Made by a program: the position numbers and the translations under genes
The notes under the pieces: generated by a model
The model's database searches: none
What the model saw: the letters and a program-made list of their open reading frames with translations, nothing else
Told to the model about the DNA's origin: nothing
Origin: Prevotella sp. E9-3
GTDB lineage: Bacteria > Bacteroidota > Bacteroidia > Bacteroidales > Bacteroidaceae
Assembly: GCF_022024015.1 (NCBI RefSeq)
Contig: NZ_CP091786.1
Coordinates: forward strand, 434,001 to 498,000
Length of the DNA: 64,000 bases
Reading direction: 5' to 3'
In this document: positions 1,020-54,175 of the stretch, in pieces
How positions within the stretch are numbered: the stretch's first letter is position 1
Layout of the letters: each line of letters opens with the position of its first letter

Positions 1020-2402
1020 ATGACTGTTTTGATTCAGATTCTTCAATTCGTGCTGGCTTTGGCCCTGCTGGTCTTGCTGCATGAATTCGGACATTTCTTC
1101 TTCTCTAAGCTCTTTGGCGTAAGAGTAGAGAAGTTCTTCCTGTTCTTTGACCTCGGTATTGGTAAGTGGACGGGCAAACTGTTCAGCCATAAGCCAAAGA
1201 ACAGTGATACGGAATACGGTATCGGATGGCTGCCATTAGGCGGTTACTGTAAGATAGCCGGTATGATTGACGAGAGTTTTGATACCGAGCAGATGAAACA
1301 ACCCGAACAGCCTTGGGAGTTCCGTTCCAAGCCTGCATGGCAGCGACTGCTCATCATGATAGGCGGCGTATTGGTGAACTTCCTGTTGGCATTGTTCATC
1401 TATTCTATGATCATGTTCACTTGGGGCGAGAAATATGTAGCACTCCAGGACATGAGCGAGGGTATGTACTTCAATGATGAGGCTATTGAACTGGGTTTCC
1501 AGAATGGTGATATCCTGTTGAGTCATGATGGCATCGACTTCAAGGAGTTTGGTGCTGATATGTATCGTGATATCTCTGAAGCCCATGAGGTGACTGTACT
1601 TCGTGACGGTAAGAAGGTGAGCATCAGTCTGCCTGGCGACTTGAACCTCCTCAACATGCTGAAGAATGAACCGCGTTTCGTTACACCCTATATCCCTGCT
1701 GTTATAGATAGTGTGCTGCCCGCAACTCCTGCCTCTTTGGCTGGTCTTCAGAAAGGCGACCGTATCGTGGCCATTAATGATCATGAGGTGACCAGTTATA
1801 ATGGATTCCTTTTTGAGATAGGCCGACTGCAGGACATGCTTTCAGCAGCCGTTACACCTGACGACAGCATGAAAGTGCGTACAACAACAATTGTATATAC
1901 ACGCGCTGAGGTTACTGACACGGCTTCCGTGGTGCTTACCGCTGATTTAAAACTGGGCTTCTCTCCCACAAATGTGCTGAGTCTTTATGAGCCCACGACT
2001 GTCAACTATAATTTCTTTGAGAGTTTCCCCGCTGGTATTAAGTACGGATGGAACGTGTTGGCAGGCTATGTGAGCGATATGAAATATGTGTTCACAAGCG
2101 ATGGTGCCAAGTCGCTCGGCGGTTTCGGTACTATTGGTAGTCTGTTCCCCCCAATGTGGGACTGGTACGTGTTCTGGAAAATGACTGCTTTCCTCAGCAT
2201 CATTCTCGCTTTCATGAACATCCTGCCTATTCCCGCTCTCGACGGCGGTCATGTCCTGTTCCTCCTTTATGAGATGATTACCCGCCGCAAGCCGTCAGAA
2301 CAGTTCATGATTCGTGCTGAATATTTCGGCTTTGGCCTGATCATTCTGCTCATGGTCGTTGCCAACCTGAACGATGTGCTCAGGTGGATAGGAGTCATGT
2401 AG
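1020..2402 (+). CDS. rseP: Site-2 (RIP) zinc metalloprotease RseP
   Basis: An inner-membrane M50 protease that cuts transmembrane segments of anti-sigma factors and related proteins. The 460-residue length is normal. The zinc-binding HEFGH motif lies in the first membrane helix (about residues 22-26). A PDZ-like region follows in the middle (LPATPASLAGLQKGDRI). The second metal-site segment, NILPIPALDGGH, is near the C-terminus, followed by a last hydrophobic helix. It sits 39 bp after dxr and is probably co-transcribed with it. Its last 8 bases overlap the end of the convergent comEC gene. Confidence 0.95.
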   Translation: MTVLIQILQFVLALALLVLLHEFGHFFFSKLFGVRVEKFFLFFDLGIGKWTGKLFSHKPKNSDTEYGIGWLPLGGYCKIAGMIDESFDTEQMKQPEQPWEFRSKPAWQRLLIMIGGVLVNFLLALFIYSMIMFTWGEKYVALQDMSEGMYFNDEAIELGFQNGDILLSHDGIDFKEFGADMYRDISEAHEVTVLRDGKKVSISLPGDLNLLNMLKNEPRFVTPYIPAVIDSVLPATPASLAGLQKGDRIVAINDHEVTSYNGFLFEIGRLQDMLSAAVTPDDSMKVRTTTIVYTRAEVTDTASVVLTADLKLGFSPTNVLSLYEPTTVNYNFFESFPAGIKYGWNVLAGYVSDMKYVFTSDGAKSLGGFGTIGSLFPPMWDWYVFWKMTAFLSIILAFMNILPIPALDGGHVLFLLYEMITRRKPSEQFMIRAEYFGFGLIILLMVVANLNDVLRWIGVM

Positions 2403-3906
2403 CAGGCAACGAGGCTGAATCATCCCAGCGTATGGCAGCATACTGGGAGCGTCTCCCTTTCCATACGTTGATGATTCCAATGATGCAGGCAATCGTGAAA
2501 TAACATGAAATAACCTGAAGAACCGATGGGTGCAGGCCTTCAATACTGGCCAGCGGCCATCGGTTCATTTTTGTCAGTATGTCGTTCAATATGCCTACAG
2601 TACCGATCACCGCACTACTTAATGGCTGCCAGGGTACTATGAGCATGAACAGACTTCCATAGAGAATGATATAGGCCACGGGGAGTACGATGAGATTGGT
2701 AAGCAGGAAATAAGTAGAGAACCGGCCGAAATAGAATGCTATCAAGGGTGCTACTCCTATTTGGGCGGCTATGGACACACGAAACAGAGCACCAATCGTT
2801 TCTTTTGACTTTCTGAAAACTCTTTCTTTGAATCCCCATTCCGTTCTTTCTACCATGATTTCTTTTTCCCCTTTTAATAGCGGTGCTATTATCAGGATGC
2901 TCAGCACTGCCATGTAGGAGAGCTGGAAACCGACGTCGTAGAGTACGTGCGGGTTTATGCCAAGGGTGATGATGGCTGAAAGACAAAGCAGATTCAAAGA
3001 TGCCTGTGTGCGGAATCCTACTGAGAATATGGCGAAGAGACTGATCATTAATGCGGCACGGACAATACTGGTGGAAAAACCAGTGAGCATGGCAAAGGAC
3101 CAGATGGCAGTAACCAACAGCGATTGTGACCAGATACAATGTCGCCTCCTTCGGCTTAGGGTAAGCATTGACAATAGCATATAGAGAATGCCAAGGTGCA
3201 TACCGCTCAATGCCAGGATGTGTGAGGCTCCCGTCACCGAGTAGGTGTTTCGGAGGTCTTTCGATAGGGAAGACTTGTCGCCAAGTGTCATCGCTGCCAG
3301 CACAGCATATTGGTCGTTGACAGCTCCTAATAAACGGTAGCGCTCTAATAGCTTGTGGCGGATGCGAAGACTCACAATGCGTGCACGGCTGAAGGCAGAC
3401 AGCCCGTCTGTAGATACATTGGCACGTTGCCAATGGTGGGCACCTACATAGAACAAACCGGAAAACTCCTCGATTTCCATTTGTATGCCATCGCCTGGTT
3501 GCAGCTTCTCGCTACGCTCGTCTTTCGCAATATAGCATTTTATTTCCTGACCGTTCTCAGTCAGGATGATGTCGAAAGCAAAAGTCTTGGGCTTCTCTGA
3601 TTTCTCGGAGGCAATGATGCCCGAACTTACCGCAGTGTTTGGAAAAAGTGCATCGGAATGGTTCTTGTGCTGATAGTAAATAGCATTGAAACATCCTGTG
3701 GTGATAGTGATGGTATAGAGTAAGGCTGATTGAGTTCTTGGGTACTTGTCGGCAACGATTGTGAAGAAGAGCAGGATAAAAAACAGAATAGGCCAGAGGA
3801 ATAGCGGAAGGTGCTGAAGGGGTAATGAAAAACCTGCCATAATGCCAAGTATCAGACAAATGGCAATAGGCAGGAGTGGAGTATTTCTGATAAGAGAGAT
3901 TCCCAT
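2395..3906 (-). CDS. comEC: ComEC/Rec2-family DNA-uptake channel protein
   Basis: A polytopic membrane protein of the ComEC/Rec2 family, which forms the inner-membrane channel for single-stranded DNA during natural transformation. The 503 residues hold N-terminal membrane helices, a soluble DUF4131/OB-like region (about 100-180) and the competence domain with GASHILALSGMHLGIL and many helices. The C-terminal metallo-beta-lactamase domain of longer homologues is absent; from general knowledge, shorter forms are common in Bacteroidota, so this need not be a truncation. It starts 2 bp after the stop of the HAD gene, forming a likely two-gene operon. Whether this organism is competent cannot be judged here. 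Confidence 0.88.
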   Translation of the reverse strand: MGISLIRNTPLLPIAICLILGIMAGFSLPLQHLPLFLWPILFFILLFFTIVADKYPRTQSALLYTITITTGCFNAIYYQHKNHSDALFPNTAVSSGIIASEKSEKPKTFAFDIILTENGQEIKCYIAKDERSEKLQPGDGIQMEIEEFSGLFYVGAHHWQRANVSTDGLSAFSRARIVSLRIRHKLLERYRLLGAVNDQYAVLAAMTLGDKSSLSKDLRNTYSVTGASHILALSGMHLGILYMLLSMLTLSRRRRHCIWSQSLLVTAIWSFAMLTGFSTSIVRAALMISLFAIFSVGFRTQASLNLLCLSAIITLGINPHVLYDVGFQLSYMAVLSILIIAPLLKGEKEIMVERTEWGFKERVFRKSKETIGALFRVSIAAQIGVAPLIAFYFGRFSTYFLLTNLIVLPVAYIILYGSLFMLIVPWQPLSSAVIGTVGILNDILTKMNRWPLASIEGLHPSVLQVISCYFTIACIIGIINVWKGRRSQYAAIRWDDSASLPAT

Positions 3907-3908
3907 TT

Positions 3909-4601
3909 CTACTCGGAGACAATCTGGAGCAGTTCGCTGAAGTGGCTGATTTCTGTTAAACCTTCGTGTTGGATTTTTTCTGCATGTTCCAGTTGCCAGG
4001 TAACATGGAAGGGGATATAAACAGCCCTACAACCGATAGCCAGTGCTGGCGCTATATCGCTCTTCATGGAATTGCCGATCATGGTTATCTGCTCAGGCTC
4101 GGTGCGCAAATGATGGCAGAGAGCAGTAAACTCACGTTCGGTCTTGTCGCTGGTTATCTCGACATGTTCAAAATACCGGCTCAGCCCAGAACGCTGCAAC
4201 TTGTGCTCTTGGTCAAGCAGTTCTCCCTTGGTGAATACTGCCATGTGCCAGCCTTGCTGATGAAGCGTCTTCAAGGTGTCTTCTACCTCAGGGAGTGGGG
4301 TAGCAGGCAGTTCTTGCAGGGTGTAGCATTCCTGTTGGAGCCATGCCAGTTTGTGACCAGACAGTTCGTGGTTTGAAACACGTAAAGCGGTCTCTATCAT
4401 GGAAAGGGTGAAAGCCTTTGTGCCGTATCCCAATAAAGGCATGTTCTTTTGCTCTGTGGCAAAGAGTTGCTTAGCAGCCGTATCACGATCTACCCAAGGC
4501 TCCAGTAGCGTGTAGAGTTCCTGCATCACTCGCTCAAAGTGACCTTGGCAGTCCCAAAGGGTGTCATCGGCATCGAAGATTAACCATTCTTTTTCTTTCA
4601 T
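3909..4601 (-). CDS. HAD-superfamily hydrolase (YjjG/PgpP-like phosphatase)
   Basis: A soluble phosphatase-type HAD protein of 230 residues. Motif I is FDADDTLWD at residues 8-16 (nucleophile Asp and the Asp two positions on). Motif II is VFTKGE, and the motif III/IV region has a Lys in SDKTEREF followed by MIGNSMKSDIAPA. The helical cap lies between motifs I and II. The substrate cannot be told from sequence; a nucleotide or phosphosugar phosphatase is likely. It lies just upstream of comEC with 2 bp between them. Confidence 0.88.
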   Translation of the reverse strand: MKEKEWLIFDADDTLWDCQGHFERVMQELYTLLEPWVDRDTAAKQLFATEQKNMPLLGYGTKAFTLSMIETALRVSNHELSGHKLAWLQQECYTLQELPATPLPEVEDTLKTLHQQGWHMAVFTKGELLDQEHKLQRSGLSRYFEHVEITSDKTEREFTALCHHLRTEPEQITMIGNSMKSDIAPALAIGCRAVYIPFHVTWQLEHAEKIQHEGLTEISHFSELLQIVSE

Positions 4602-4616
4602 TTCAGTCTTGAAGGG

Positions 4617-5621
4617 TTAATCGGTTGTCTTCTGAGTCTTTGTGGCAACTACCGAGAGAAGCATAGAGAGCACAAGGATACCGAAGATGATGAGCAGGCT
4701 GAGTGCAGTGGGTACCTCAATATGAGGAATGTTGAGATTGAGGCCAACCCATTCTCCAATGCCATTGATATATTCGTTCATGGCCAGCAGCATCTTGATA
4801 CCTACGAAGATGAGAATGATGCCTAGTCCGTATTTCAGGTATTTGAAATACTTGGCTACGGCAGCCAAGGCAAAATATAGCGCACGAAGACCAAGAATAG
4901 CAAAGATGTTGGAGGTGAGTACGATGAACGGATCGCGAGAAACAGAGAATACAGCGGGAATACTATCTACGGCAAAGGCTACGTCGGTGGTCTCGATGAC
5001 TAAAAGTGTGATGAACAGGGGGGTAGCCAACCGCTTGCCGTTCTCAGCAATAAAGAACTTGTCGCCATGCATCTTGTCGGTGACAGGAAATAGCTTTTTG
5101 AACCATCTCACGATAATGTTTTTCGATGGGTCGGCAGCCTGCTCGTCATTATGGTTGAACATCTTTCCGCCTGTGTAGAGCAGGAACAGACCGAAAAGCC
5201 CCAATACCCATTCAAAACGTTCTACCATTGCGGCACCGGCAAAGATGAATATACTACGAAGAACCAAAGCGCCGAAAATGCCCCAGAACAACACTTCGTG
5301 CTGATATTTGCGTTCAACGCCAAAGAAGGAGAATAGCATTAGGAAAACAAAGAGGTTGTCCATAGATAAGGATTTCTCTATCAGATAGCCTGCTAAAAAC
5401 TCCATTGCCTTTTCGTGAGCATCACCAGGATAGAAAAGGTATATGCCAGCACAAAAGACCATTGACACACCTATCCATACGGCGGTCATCTTCAATGCTT
5501 CTTTCACGCTCACCTCATGTTCGCCTTTCTTGCCGAACATCTTCAGGTCGGCAATGAGCATGATGAATACTAAAACATAAAATACAATCCATGCCCAAAG
5601 GGGCAGTCCCATTAAATCCAT
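4617..5621 (-). CDS. TerC/Alx-family integral membrane protein
   Basis: A 334-residue polytopic membrane protein of the TerC/Alx family, associated with tellurite resistance, manganese export or alkaline response in other bacteria; its role here is not proven. Signatures are ADLKMFG near the N-terminus, FVFLMLFSFFGV, and DVAFAVDSIPAVFSVSRDPF, whose acidic residues inside membrane segments are typical of the family. Its own promoter-like element lies at 5647-5654 (minus strand). The HAD and comEC genes follow downstream with short gaps and could be co-transcribed. Confidence 0.9.
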   Translation of the reverse strand: MDLMGLPLWAWIVFYVLVFIMLIADLKMFGKKGEHEVSVKEALKMTAVWIGVSMVFCAGIYLFYPGDAHEKAMEFLAGYLIEKSLSMDNLFVFLMLFSFFGVERKYQHEVLFWGIFGALVLRSIFIFAGAAMVERFEWVLGLFGLFLLYTGGKMFNHNDEQAADPSKNIIVRWFKKLFPVTDKMHGDKFFIAENGKRLATPLFITLLVIETTDVAFAVDSIPAVFSVSRDPFIVLTSNIFAILGLRALYFALAAVAKYFKYLKYGLGIILIFVGIKMLLAMNEYINGIGEWVGLNLNIPHIEVPTALSLLIIFGILVLSMLLSVVATKTQKTTD

Positions 5622-49246: not shown

Positions 49247-50194
49247 ATGGCAAAAATTGCAAAACAGCTGACCGAGCTCGTCGGCAACACTCCACTCTTA
49301 GAGCTCAACAAGTATTCAAAGGCAAAGGGACTGAACACCCCCGTTATTGCTAAGGTAGAATTCTTCAATCCTGGTGGCAGCGTAAAGGATCGTATAGCAC
49401 TTGCTATGATTGAGGATGCAGAGAAGAAAGGTATTCTAAAGCCCGGTGCTACCATCATCGAGCCCACCAGCGGAAACACAGGCGTAGGACTGGCATTGGT
49501 ATCGGCCGTGAAGGGTTATCACCTGATTCTCACCATGCCCGAGACCATGAGTGTTGAGCGTCGCAACTTGGTGAAAGCCTATGGCGCTGAGGTTCGCCTC
49601 ACTCCTGGAAAAGACGGAATGCCCGGTGCTATCCGTGCTGCAGAGGAATTGCGCGACAGTATCCCCGGTTCTGTAATCCTGCAGCAGTTTGAGAATGGTG
49701 CCAACCCCGCCAAGCATTATGCCACAACAGGCCCAGAGATTTGGCGCGACACCGATGGTCAGGTAGATATCTTCATTGGTGGTGTGGGTACTGGCGGAAC
49801 CATCTCAGGCACAGGTAAGTATTTGAAGGAACAGAATCCTAATGTGAAGATTATCGCTGTAGAGCCGAAGTCAAGCCCCGTGCTGAATGGTGGTCAGAGC
49901 GGTCCTCACAAGATTCAGGGTATCGGTGCCGGTTTTGTGCCCAAGACCTACGATGCCAACGTTATCGACGAGGTGTTCGATGTAGAGAACGACGATGCCA
50001 TCCGTACCGGTCGCGAACTGGCTCAGCAGGAAGGTCTGCTCGTTGGTATCTCAGCAGGTGCTGCCGCTTTTGCTGCTGCCGAGGTGGCCAAGCGTCCGGA
50101 GAACAAGGGCAAGAAGATTGTAGTGTTACTGCCCGATACCGGCGAACGCTATCTTTCTACCGTGCTGTATGCATTTGAAGAGTATCCTCTTTAA
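49247..50194 (+). CDS. cysK: Cysteine synthase A (O-acetylserine sulfhydrylase)
   Basis: Makes L-cysteine from O-acetylserine and sulfide. 315 residues, PLP lysine K47 in [11 protein letters not shown]; the acetylserine-binding loop is [14 protein letters not shown]; the phosphate-binding loop is [16 protein letters not shown]; and the C-terminal domain has [15 protein letters not shown]. Full length and all key residues present. It lies between metY and the pdx operon; CysK and MetY both need PLP, a sensible grouping. Confidence 0.96.
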
Positions 50195-50230
50195 TCCATT
50201 TTAGTTTATCATCCATTATAACCGTTTTCA

Positions 50231-50288
50231 AATTTTGGCCAGAATTCTCGTAATTTTGGCCATTATTTTTTGAATTTTGGCCAAAATT
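50231..50288 (+). repeat. Three phased 21-bp repeats upstream of the pdx operon
   Basis: AATTTTGGCCA occurs at 50231, 50252 and 50273, exactly 21 bp apart, which puts all three on one face of the helix. The last extends to the perfect palindrome AATTTTGGCCAAAATT. They lie about 90-145 bp upstream of the probable start of transcription of the ThiD-like/AraC gene and are candidate operators for its product. The rest of the gap 50195-50416 shows a TTG-N20-TTCCTTTG promoter-like pair (50377-50407). Confidence 0.7.
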
Positions 50289-50416
50289 TATTTTAGTATG
50301 ATGATGATGAGGCCGCAATAGTTGAAAGACGGGTTTGCATAAACTGCACTTTTCTTTATCAATAGAAGAACAAAACTTGGCATTTTGCTCGTTTTTTCTT
50401 TCCTTTGCAAAAAATT

Positions 50417-51310
50417 ATGGACATCACAAATACTATACTGACAATTACCGGCTCGGATGGAACGGGTGGATCGGGCATTCAGGCCGATATCCGTTTCATT
50501 GTGGAATTAGGTGGAGTGGCGGCTTCAGTCGTCACTTCTATCACGGTTCAGAATACGCTGGGTATTCAGGAGTTCTACGATCTGCCTGCCAGTGTGGTGC
50601 GCCAGCAGATAGAGGCCATCGTCAACGACCTGCAGCCAAAAGTGGTGAAGATAGGACTGGTGAGAAGAATCGATGTGGCCCAGGCCATCGTAGATGTGCT
50701 GCGCCAGTATCATCCTGAACAGGTGGTCTATGCGCCTGTGCTGCATTCCAGCAAGGGTGACCTGCTGGTGTCGGCAGAGACCTACGAAGCCATTCGCAAC
50801 CTGTTGATGCCCCTCTGTACCATCGTTCTTGATCCTACCGACCATCAGTGGCACGGTTATGCCAATCAGCTGTCGTCGGCCGTTGCTGTTTTCCTGAGCA
50901 GGGGCGACTCCGTCGATGATGCCTTGTTGCATGCCCGGGCCCGTTTGAAGCAGTTGCCCGTTGGCTATGCCGATATGACAGGTCGCAGCAGTGAGCTGTA
51001 CAATCAGTTTCTTGATGCCGTGGGGCGTTTCTTCCATCGGTATAGTGATGTGGCTTTCTATGCCGAACAGCTCAATGTGAGTCCCCGTTATCTGGGACAG
51101 GTAACGCGCAGCATTGGTGGCCGTTCGCCAAAGGCTATTATAGACGAGCGAATCACCACGGAGATAGTGACGCTGCTCACCACCACCGACAAACCGCTGA
51201 AGGAAATTGCCCGTTTGTTAGGCTTCTCCTCACAGGCCCATCTGTCCCGTTATTTCAAGAATCAAAAAGGCTTTTCGCCTTCCAACTATAAACTAAAGCA
51301 TATAGGATGA
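50417..51310 (+). CDS. ThiD-like kinase domain fused to AraC-type DNA-binding domain
   Basis: A 297-residue protein (ATG 50417; the in-frame TTG at 50405 is less likely). Residues 5-180 match the ThiD/PdxK ribokinase-like fold: [28 protein letters not shown] and VVKIGL. The middle of the kinase, about 70 residues, is missing. The catalytic GTGC segment is replaced around 142-155 ([14 protein letters not shown]) and the DPVM Asp is Ala106, so kinase activity is doubtful. Residues about 205-297 are an AraC helix-turn-helix ([16 protein letters not shown], then [20 protein letters not shown]). Its stop overlaps the pdxS start (ATGA). I infer a transcription factor sensing a pyrimidine or B6 vitamer and controlling pdxST. 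Confidence 0.88.
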
Positions 51311-52212
51311 CTAATGTAAAAGAAACTGTTGTCGCTTCTCATGAGAACAGACAACAACTGAATCGCCAGTTGGCTCAGATGCTGAAAGGTGGCGTAATCA
51401 TGGATGTGACAACTCCCGAACAGGCCCGTATAGCCGAAGAGGCTGGTGCCTGTGCTGTGATGGCATTGGAACGTATTCCTGCTGATATTCGTGCAGCAGG
51501 TGGTGTAAGTCGTATGAGCGATCCGAAGATGATTCGCGGTATTCAGGAGGCTGTGACTATTCCCGTGATGGCGAAATGCCGTATCGGTCACATTGCTGAG
51601 GCTCAGATTCTGCAGGCTATCGAAATAGACTATATTGACGAGAGTGAGGTACTTTCACCAGCCGACAATATCTATCATATCGACAAAACCAAGTTTGACG
51701 TGCCTTTCGTGTGCGGTGCCAAGAACTTGGGTGAGGCTCTGCGCCGTATTGCCGAGGGTGCCACAATGATTCGTACCAAGGGTGAGCCAGGTACTGGCGA
51801 CGTGGTACAGGCTGTGAGTCACATGCGCATGATGCAGAGCGAGATTCGCCGACTGGTTAGTATGAGCGAGGACGAGCTCTTTGAGGCTGCCAAGCAGTTG
51901 CAGGCCCCTTACGAACTGGTGAAATTCGTTCATGAAAACGGTAAACTTCCTGTGGTGAACTTTGCTGCCGGTGGTGTGGCTACGCCTGCCGATGCTGCCC
52001 TGATGATGCAACTGGGTGCAGAAGGGGTGTTTGTGGGTAGTGGTATCTTCAAGAGTGGCAATCCCGCCAAGCGTGCCGCTGCTATTGTTCAGGCTGTGAC
52101 TAACTATAAGGATGCCAAACTCCTGGCTGAACTGTCAGAAGACTTAGGCGAGGCGATGGTAGGAATCAACGAGCATGAGATAGAACTCCTGATGGCCGAA
52201 CGAGGAAAGTGA
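51307..52212 (+). CDS. pdxS: Pyridoxal 5'-phosphate synthase, PdxS subunit
   Basis: The synthase subunit of the DXP-independent B6 pathway; with PdxT it makes PLP from ribose 5-phosphate, glyceraldehyde 3-phosphate and ammonia. 301 residues, (beta/alpha)8 barrel. [11 protein letters not shown] contains the metal/substrate Asp, [10 protein letters not shown] holds the first imine lysine, and [14 protein letters not shown] the second. [14 protein letters not shown] and VGSGIF bind phosphate. Full length. Overlaps the upstream regulator gene by 4 bp; separated from pdxT by a heptad array. Confidence 0.96.
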
Positions 52213-52301
52213 GAGGTGAGAACTGAGAGTTGAGAACTGAGAGTTGAGAACTGAGAGTTGAGAGGTGAGAGGTGAGAATTGAGAGGTGAGAATTGAGAGG
52301 T
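52211..52301 (+). repeat. Heptanucleotide array (13 units) between pdxS and pdxT
   Basis: Thirteen perfect 7-bp registers of GAGANNT (GAGAGGT, GAGAACT, GAGAGTT, GAGAATT) start within the pdxS TGA stop and end 5 bp before the pdxT ATG. Five units are GAGAGGT, and followed by GA they give GAGGTGA, a match to the ribosome anti-Shine-Dalgarno. Copy-number change would alter ribosome loading on pdxT without changing coding sequence. Confidence 0.85.
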
Positions 52302-52306
52302 GTAAA

Positions 52307-52903
52307 ATGAAAGTTGCTGTATTGGCCCTACAAGGGGCATTTATTGAGCATGAGCAGGCATTGCAGAAACTCGGAGTAGAGACAGTCGAAATCCGTCAGC
52401 TAAGTGATTGGCTGTCATACTACTCCCTCCCCTCACAGGGGAGGGCTGGGGAAGGGTCCGTTTCTTTGATTCTCCCTGGCGGTGAGAGTACGGTGCAGAT
52501 GCGCTTGCTCCGTCAGTTGGGACTTTTGGAACCCATCCGGCAAGCAATTATCGACGGACTGCCTGTCTTCGGTACCTGTGCCGGCATGATTCTGCTGTCA
52601 GAGAGTCATCTGGCCACAATGGACATCCGGGTGCGCCGCAATGCCTACGGCCGTCAGTTGGGCAGTTTCCATACAGTAGATAGGGTAGAGGGATTGGGCG
52701 ATGATATTCCAATGACGTTTATCCGTGCACCCTATATAGAAGAGGTGCTCTCTGCCGATTGTCAGCCTATCGCCACTGTTGATGGACATATCGTAGCCGC
52801 CCTACAAGGTAATCAGTTGGCTACGGCTTTCCATCCGGAACTTGATGATGATTTAAGGTTCCATCAAATGTTCTTGGAGAGGGTACTTAAAAAAGGAGTT
52901 TAA
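52307..52903 (+). CDS. pdxT: Pyridoxal 5'-phosphate synthase, PdxT glutaminase subunit
   Basis: The glutaminase that feeds ammonia to PdxS. 198 residues from ATG 52307 (a longer frame would begin in the repeat array). VLALQGAFIEHEQAL starts the domain; SLILPGGEST, the nucleophile Cys in FGTCAGMILL, and the His/Glu pair in TAFHPELDDD complete the catalytic set. Residues 40-51 (SLPSQGRAGEGS) are an insertion relative to usual PdxT between the second helix and LILPGGEST, and are encoded by a palindromic repeat element (52423-52459). The frame stays open, so the protein is probably functional. Confidence 0.93.
   Translation: MKVAVLALQGAFIEHEQALQKLGVETVEIRQLSDWLSYYSLPSQGRAGEGSVSLILPGGESTVQMRLLRQLGLLEPIRQAIIDGLPVFGTCAGMILLSESHLATMDIRVRRNAYGRQLGSFHTVDRVEGLGDDIPMTFIRAPYIEEVLSADCQPIATVDGHIVAALQGNQLATAFHPELDDDLRFHQMFLERVLKKGV
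52423..52459 (-). repeat. Palindromic dispersed element inside pdxT
   Basis: The 37 bases match the element at 54278-54306 in order: a C-rich arm, a CACA-containing centre, GGGGAGGG, then GGGGAAGGGTCC. It is translated in frame as SLPSQGRAGEGS. The 37-bp core is not a multiple of three, so flanking bases must have made up the frame. Confidence 0.7.
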
Positions 52904-52984
52904 GAGTCTAGATTACTAGTTTCACTAGTCTTACTAGTTTTCCTAGTTTTCACTAGTTCTTCTAAACTCCTAAACTCCTAAATA
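52904..52984. repeat. Short tandem repeats between convergent pdxT and ackA
   Basis: This 81-bp gap consists of imperfect 9-10-bp units built on ACTAGTTTTC (five times) followed by CTAAACTC twice. No hairpin-plus-T-run terminator is seen. It lies between the stops of two convergent genes. Confidence 0.6.
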
Positions 52985-54175
52985 TTACAGGAGGTTCATT
53001 GTATCGGTGGCAATCATCAGCTCTTCGTCGGTGGGTATAACAACAACCTTCACCTTAGAGTCGTCAGCAGAGATGATGGCCTCTTCGCCACGAACATTGT
53101 TCTTTGCATCGTCGAACTTCACACCGAGGAACTCCAGACCCTTGCATACCTCTGAGCGCATGCCAATCTGGTTCTCGCCTACACCGGCAGTGAACACAAT
53201 CACATCGACACCACCCATAGCGGCTGCATAGGCACCGATGTATTTCTTAATGCGATAGAAATACATCTCCTGAGCCAGTACGGCACGAGGCTCGCCGGCC
53301 TTGGCTGCATTCTCAACATCGCGCATATCGCTCGAACCGCCAGTGATACCAGCCACACCGCTCTTCTTGTTCAACAGGTTGCTCATACCATCGGCATCCA
53401 GACCCAGCTTCTTCTCCAGGAAAGTAACGGCACCACCGTCGATATCGCCAGAGCGAGTACCCATCACAAGGCCCTCCAGTGGAGTAAGACCCATAGAGGT
53501 GTCGATGCACTTACCGTCCAGTACAGCAGCTACAGAACCGCCGTTACCAATGTGACAGGTAATCATCTTGGTACCCTCAGCCTTAATGCCGAGGAATTCG
53601 CAGGCACGTGCTGAAACATAACGATGACTGGTTCCGTGGAAACCGTAGCGACGAACACCGTACTTCTCGTACAGCTCGTAGGGAATGGCATACATATAAG
53701 CCTTGGCAGGCATGGTCTGATGGAAAGCAGTATCGAACACACCTACCTGGGGCAGACCGGGCATCAGTTCCTTCACAGCGTTCACACCCTTCAGGTTAGC
53801 GGGGTTGTGCAGTGGAGCCAGGTCAGAGCACTCTTCGAATGCCTTCAGTACCTCGTCGGTCAGCACCACGCTCTTGTTGAACTTCTCGCCGCCATGCACC
53901 ATGCGGTGACCTACAGCATCAATCTCCTTCAAGTCTTTGATAACGCCAATCTCGGGATCGGTGAGCAGTGAGAAAATGAACTTCACACCCTCGGTATGCT
54001 CAGGAATGTCGTGCATAATCTGTTTTTTCTCGCCGTTAGCCAGTTTCACCTTAACGAAAGCATTGTCAAGGCCTACACGTTCAGCACCACCACTGGTCAT
54101 CACACTCTTGTCGTCCATGTTGTACAGTGCGTACTTGATAGACGAAGAACCGCAATTTAATACTAATATCTTCAT
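52985..54175 (-). CDS. ackA: Acetate kinase
   Basis: Makes ATP and acetate from acetyl phosphate in fermentative energy metabolism. 396 residues; ASKHA fold. VLNCGSSSIKYALYNM is the N-terminal phosphate-binding signature, VGHRMVHGGEKF the substrate region, FHGTSHRYVSARA the second signature, and CHIGNGGSVAAV the adenosine region. Complete. It follows pta on the same strand; 134 bp with two inverted palindromic elements separate the genes. Confidence 0.96.
   Translation of the reverse strand: MKILVLNCGSSSIKYALYNMDDKSVMTSGGAERVGLDNAFVKVKLANGEKKQIMHDIPEHTEGVKFIFSLLTDPEIGVIKDLKEIDAVGHRMVHGGEKFNKSVVLTDEVLKAFEECSDLAPLHNPANLKGVNAVKELMPGLPQVGVFDTAFHQTMPAKAYMYAIPYELYEKYGVRRYGFHGTSHRYVSARACEFLGIKAEGTKMITCHIGNGGSVAAVLDGKCIDTSMGLTPLEGLVMGTRSGDIDGGAVTFLEKKLGLDADGMSNLLNKKSGVAGITGGSSDMRDVENAAKAGEPRAVLAQEMYFYRIKKYIGAYAAAMGGVDVIVFTAGVGENQIGMRSEVCKGLEFLGVKFDDAKNNVRGEEAIISADDSKVKVVVIPTDEELMIATDTMNLL

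Follow-up and report, generated by a model that had tools for sequence, protein, structure and literature searches.

A 64,000-nucleotide stretch of the Prevotella sp. E9-3 genome (contig NZ_CP091786.1, positions 434,001 to 498,000; hereafter the window) carries a gene whose product joins a kinase domain of the ThiD type, in all likelihood catalytically dead, to an AraC-type DNA-binding domain, directly in front of the pyridoxal 5′-phosphate (PLP) synthase genes pdxS and pdxT. Sequence comparisons strongly support the loss of catalysis and the predicted control of pdxST by this protein. The explanation that we favor, and consider probable as a whole, is that the protein is a pseudokinase that activates pdxST and senses vitamin B6; it would thus be a transcription factor and not an enzyme. 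The locus is laid out as follows.

50339 to 50382, forward strand: conserved 44-bp element, a candidate operator (39.0 bits against its position weight matrix, PWM), with the −33 box (TTG, 50377-50379) in its 3′ end
50400 to 50407, forward strand: Bacteroidota-type −7 box (TTCCTTTG), separated from the start codon by 9 nt
50417 to 51310, forward strand: pseudokinase-AraC regulator gene (ATG at 50417, TGA ending at 51310, 297 amino acids), recognized by Pfam matches
50417 to 50965, forward strand: ThiD-derived domain, residues 1-183, with the motif at 12-24, Q45, K78 and G80 kept
50828 to 50866, forward strand: junction of the deletion (near residues 138-145), followed by HGYAN (146-150) where HGTGC is expected
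50984 to 51307, forward strand: AraC-type helix-turn-helix (HTH) domain, residues 190-297
51307 to 52212, forward strand: pdxS, PLP synthase lyase subunit (NCBIfam PRK04180, 508.9 bits, cut-off 395)
52307 to 52903, forward strand: pdxT, PLP synthase glutaminase subunit (NCBIfam TIGR03800, 182.6 bits, cut-off 105.55)

The two-domain architecture, proposed in the initial annotation from the sequence alone, is borne out by profile searches. The Pfam family Phos_pyr_kin matches at E 1.8e-38, aligning best over residues 14-137 (profile positions 1-123 of 246), and HTH_18 matches residues 215-292 at E 3.4e-18 (66.2 bits versus a cut-off of 33.6). A ribokinase-type ThiD fold is present, as is an AraC HTH fold at the C-terminus, and the AlphaFold2 model has a mean predicted local distance difference test score of 91.1. 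The regulator TGA overlaps the pdxS ATG (ATGA, 51307), as had also been noted, and pdxT comes next, both synthase genes passing their NCBIfam cut-offs.

To follow the fate of the kinase domain, 163 distinct fusion proteins, obtained from 232 loci by collapsing identical C-terminal 150 residues, were aligned with 29 canonical ThiD proteins from a phylum sample; locus L013, a canonical ThiD and hence a false positive, was dropped from the set. The catalytic Cys of the GTGC motif is found in 29 of 29 canonical proteins and in none of the 163 fusions, and the Lys of KGGH in 28 of 29 and again in none. The Asn of TPN survives in only 2 of the 163, and the Asp of DPVM in 49. From ThiD structure work, we take this group of residues to serve ATP binding and phosphotransfer. 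A second set of residues, presumably lining the vitamer site on the same grounds, is retained: G12, S13, D14, G20, D24 and G80 are invariant (163/163), while K78 is found in 162, Q22 in 159 and Q45 in 154. The N-terminal signature is as intact as first described, and a search of the alignment for a restored catalytic motif yielded nothing beyond the two TPN Asn residues. Purifying selection on the dead kinase domain is as strong as on the HTH.

The protein encoded in the window has GYAN (residues 147-150) in place of GTGC, a replacement already seen in the initial annotation, and its KGGH/TPNxxE nucleotide-side region is deleted. Relative to a canonical ThiD (L007) there is a net loss of 65 residues in the second half; the gap is real, since H146-G147 pairs with H211-G212 of L007 although residue numbers agree at the N-termini. 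The earlier estimate of about 70 missing residues is close to this figure, but does not describe the family as a whole. Deletion size differs across fusions, some having lost less, and the most distant members (356-419 amino acids) have a full-length domain with no deletion, yet carry HGVGG or similar and are catalytically dead. This pattern suggests that loss of catalysis probably preceded loss of the nucleotide-binding module.

These findings bear on the possibility that the protein is a trigger enzyme, active as a kinase and able to bind DNA as well, whose linkage to pdxST reflects a salvage step. The ThiD fold is kept, and those sources in the homologue listing that give a name call the protein hydroxymethylpyrimidine/phosphomethylpyrimidine kinase. 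However, the catalytic Cys and Lys are missing from every fusion and the TPN Asn from nearly all, the module is absent from the window protein, and this protein scores 119.9 bits against an NCBIfam TIGR00097 cut-off of 204.95. We regard an active kinase as highly improbable.

The fusion is neither a one-off nor a sequencing artefact, because both domains occur in all 120 homologues listed (the best 120 of 2969 matches), and in 80 loci retained from genome records, and because the regulator query matches 102 of 299 genomes in a genus sample at E≤1e-40 (the best non-fusion ThiD in the phylum sample reached 5e-34). Record names of the relatives include Prevotella, Xylanibacter, Prevotellaceae, Bacteroidaceae and Bacteroidales, and many are rumen metagenome-assembled genomes. 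Xylanibacter brevis (L078) and Prevotella communis (L109) have orthologues of the window protein. Two-domain matches (E≤6.4e-97) among those listed for a family sample of 399 genomes fall in seven genera (g1, g3, g171, g178, g181, g182 and g190), the weaker matches listed there covering the kinase part only. An order sample of 295 genomes holds fusions in the window genome and in five others across four other families. Among the matches listed for the phylum sample (395 genomes), a full-length match occurs only in the window genome, although the single-sequence query used there would miss divergent members.

The fetched locus contains pdxS for 152 of the 163 fusions: directly downstream on the same strand within 300 bp in 137, at 0.3-5 kb in 8 and in another nearby arrangement in 7; in 4 more the flank was too short to judge. 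These counts are not independent events, since many of the fusions are close relatives. In the order sample, all 4 loci inspected (G1129 left out) have pdxST next to the fusion, in three cases head to head. Of the 299 genus genomes, 131 have pdxS, and 101 of the 102 close-match genomes are among them, the exception, G607, having a fragment at a contig end. The remaining 30 comprise 15 with a divergent fusion near pdxS, 7 with a fusion elsewhere, 7 with none and G465, which was not included, so that the fusion is found in 123 of 130 tested genomes with pdxS. Conversely, of the 168 genus genomes that lack pdxS, 80 (G607 among them) were searched with a profile and gave no fusion at E≤1e-72, a level at or below which the same model does find fusions in the family, order and pdxS-containing genus searches. 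The annotation had named homologues unlinked to B6 genes as a result that would speak against it, and linkage instead proved to be the rule.

A divergent full-length branch carrying HGVGG or similar lies near pdxST at L231-L265 (15 loci) and L325-L327, and is arranged head to head in other families. The 44-bp element cannot be recognized in this branch, and no operator of its own came to light there. Fusions not beside pdxS include L297, L298, L299, L302 and L305 and those of genomes G411, G454, G478, G519, G538, G557 and G665. Some of these unlinked fusions lie behind what look like genes for glycosyl transferases and amylase-type proteins.

Upstream of the fusion genes we found a conserved 44-bp element with the core TTTRTCA-N6-GAACA and its 3′ end at the −33 box. 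Of 93 non-redundant regions upstream of fusions, which are in-sample for the matrix, 69 reach a score of at least 8 bits, versus a maximum of 7.8 in 1860 mononucleotide shuffles. A TWNNTTTG octamer, which we assume to represent the Bacteroidota −7 consensus, follows in fixed register, at an offset from motif column 36 of 25 in 64 of 70 cases and of 26 in the other 6. Binding sites of AraC/XylS regulators are direct repeats spaced by about 21 bp. The matrix shows peaks of self-similarity at 21/22 (z 3.4/3.0) and also at 27 (z 3.1), as well as inverted symmetry (z 4.9); enrichment of 21-bp repeats was not found at the divergent loci.

Twenty genomes that carry the fusion were searched with a 36-site model, scoring in each 150 first-look candidates (of 1598 to 5251), a number that weak extra sites may escape. 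In the window genome, where 150 of 3231 candidates were scored, the element is the only match at E≤0.5 (E 4.4e-8), and its regulon there seems to be the regulator-pdxS-pdxT operon alone. Matches at E≤1.3e-4 occur in 16 of the 20 genomes, 13 upstream of the fusion gene (at about 0.5 kb in G410) and 3 upstream of pdxS, and no other place reaches 1e-3 among the matches listed; G404, G439, G516 and G589 have no match at E≤1.3e-4. Several of the 13 are members of the training set, whereas the cases in G511, G671 and G455 lie outside it. In G511 and G671 the regulator has a place behind a tRNA-Leu gene, away from pdxS. The element is absent from this relocated regulator, where L049 scores −22.0 and none of the matches listed for either genome falls, and is found instead with its start 107 bp ahead of pdxS. 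In G455 the element lies between regulator and pdxS. Because it stays at pdxS when the regulator has moved, the element goes with pdxS.

Several other candidate signals were set aside. A short degenerate version of the element pattern gave 154 matches in the window genome versus 118 for a reversed control and, being too unspecific, was replaced by the 44-position model. A site just before pdxS in G439 (PWM 19.2) that the model does not list at E≤0.5, a second site in G492 (E 0.096) and a site in G404 (E 0.042) were not counted. Three direct repeats of AATTTTGGCCA with exact 21-bp spacing (50225-50289) lie in the intergenic region that separates the regulator from the cysteine synthase gene. 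As an AraC-type operator of the family they were rejected, since among 151 upstream regions the series occurs in only two, both the window itself. The sole Rfam match, to mir-186 (27.1 versus a gathering score of 70 bits), was taken as chance, and a riboswitch was rejected.

The position of the element at the −33 box suggests that the regulator activates the pdxST promoter. Sites upstream of or over −33 that leave the −7 box and the start free are the usual position for an activator, and the fixed register found here conforms to it. The same overlap with the −33 box could serve a repressor of pdxST that takes the same vitamer as a co-repressor, an arrangement that we think rather unlikely given this geometry.

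With regard to the ligand, the fusion tracks pdxS and not thiamin genes, which makes a B6 vitamer the simplest choice. ThiC is missing from 10 of the 20 fusion genomes, that of the window included. A canonical ThiD scoring at least 165 bits is present in the 10 genomes with ThiC (split in two pieces in G526 and G662). The other 10 yield only the fusion and matches of at most 71 bits, which we take to be PdxK/PdxY-like kinases and NAD(P)HX enzymes because two in the window genome read so. This genome has a separate PdxK/PdxY-like kinase (L002) and neither ThiC nor a canonical ThiD, from which dependence of the organism on external thiamin is predicted. The retained substrate-side residues, together with the absence of hydroxymethylpyrimidine (HMP) synthesis from 10 of the 20 genomes, lead us to infer that the domain binds a B6 vitamer rather than HMP.

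A sensor of HMP or its phosphate (HMP-P) that ties B6 synthesis to thiamin status would accord with descent from a ThiD and with Gln45, present in 29 of 29 canonical ThiD proteins and kept in most fusions. That linkage is to pdxST, and that half of the genomes lack both ThiC and a high-scoring canonical ThiD, makes such a sensor improbable, even with HMP uptake as a possible source. Also unlikely is that the kinase remnant is a dimerization scaffold only, with the AraC part working without a small ligand. ThiD enzymes dimerize, and the ligand of the domain is a predicted one; however, six substrate-side positions are invariant in 163 of 163 proteins despite the loss of catalysis.

Some observations weigh against a B6-sensing activator of pdxST. 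No element is present at 8 bits in 24 of the 93 upstream regions, and 28 pdxS loci from genomes that lack a close regulator match (E≤1e-40), 15 of them with a divergent fusion near pdxS, score no higher than 8.7 within 1.5 kb. Distant members must therefore rely on a different site. For seven of the 163 fusions, two of them the tRNA-Leu relocations, pdxS is missing from a downstream flank that covers at least 2.5 kb; in another seven genomes of the genus the fusion is not beside pdxS; and seven of the 130 have pdxS and no fusion. Across the genomes studied, a second B6 regulator of the MocR type may exist as well. Finally, the window protein has L81 and A106 versus Met and Asp in canonical proteins, and its ligand may therefore differ from that of ThiD.

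In the B6-sensing activator model, the ThiD (HMP/pyridoxal-kinase) domain, apparently dead in every member examined, would have kept its vitamer pocket and act as sensor for the AraC domain to which it is fused; in the branch of the window, most of the nucleotide-binding half is gone as well. The binding site of the protein would be the 44-bp element, which reaches into the −33 box from the upstream side, at the promoter of regulator, pdxS and pdxT or, where the regulator has been relocated, at that of pdxS alone. When B6 is scarce the promoter would most likely be activated, and occupation of the former substrate pocket by pyridoxal or PLP would turn activation off. The direction of control, with the ligand-free form active and the vitamer opposing it, is drawn by analogy with PdxR: passages of PMC5320631 describe apo-PdxR as activating pdxST and PLP as an anti-activator.

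More tentatively, the dead-ThiD AraC family could take the part of PdxR as B6 switch in Prevotella-type Bacteroidota. The pocket would read unphosphorylated vitamers (pyridoxal, possibly HMP) and not PLP, and stepwise loss of the ATP half among living members would mark the route from enzyme to sensor. De novo synthesis would then be set by the vitamers on hand for salvage. We hold this wider proposal to be possible but doubtful.

Two neighboring genes, named from their translations, border the operon.

49247 to 50194: cysteine synthase gene, upstream of the regulator
52985 to 54175: acetate kinase gene, convergent, downstream of pdxT

Between pdxS and pdxT lie 6.6 tandem copies of a 14-bp unit, TGAGAGGTGAGAAC (52209-52316), and further tandem repeats are found behind pdxT (52913-52982). 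Within pdxT, a GC-rich near-palindrome in frame (52427-52451), reading approximately SLPSQGRAGEGS and present once in the window, could represent a repeat element that has entered a loop.

As a dedicated pdxST regulator (control being predicted here) with an enzyme-derived sensor domain, the fusion resembles PdxR, of the MocR subfamily of GntR regulators. The two share no domain: PdxR combines a GntR winged HTH with an aminotransferase-like domain, and the fusion an AraC HTH with a ThiD-like kinase domain. Neither GntR nor aminotransferase domains are among the four Pfam families listed to E 1 for the regulator, in keeping with the initial distinction from PdxR. With ThiD, the HMP-P kinase, and ThiD2-type pyridoxal kinases (COG0351) the fusion has the fold and the N-terminal motifs in common; unlike them it has lost the catalytic Cys, the KGGH Lys and nearly always the TPN Asn, and has gained an HTH, the window branch also lacking 65 residues. 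Its C-terminal DNA-binding domain is that of the AraC/XylS family, whose usual sensor partners are cupins and others; here the partner is a dead kinase. An archaeal ThiN-HTH regulator of thiamin genes reportedly also reuses a vitamin-pathway enzyme domain as sensor on a DNA-binding domain, with a different enzyme domain and HTH. An enzyme-derived vitamin sensor on an HTH is thus a known principle, and the fusion is PdxR-like in its proposed working and outside the PdxR family. No description of a ThiD-AraC regulator was found among the papers listed in the literature searched, a scope outside which most subscription papers fall, and the term AraC does not occur in the main texts of PMC9997740, PMC5320631 and PMC6593275.

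Because such proteins, where a source names them, are labeled hydroxymethylpyrimidine kinases, pathway predictions may credit genomes like that of the window with a thiamin step that is probably missing. If the proposed function is correct, a large set of Bacteroidota from gut and rumen would have a dedicated B6 regulator of new make-up, and the family would clearly exemplify an enzyme that became a sensor and whose intermediates are still alive, from a full-length dead domain through partial deletions to the minimal form.
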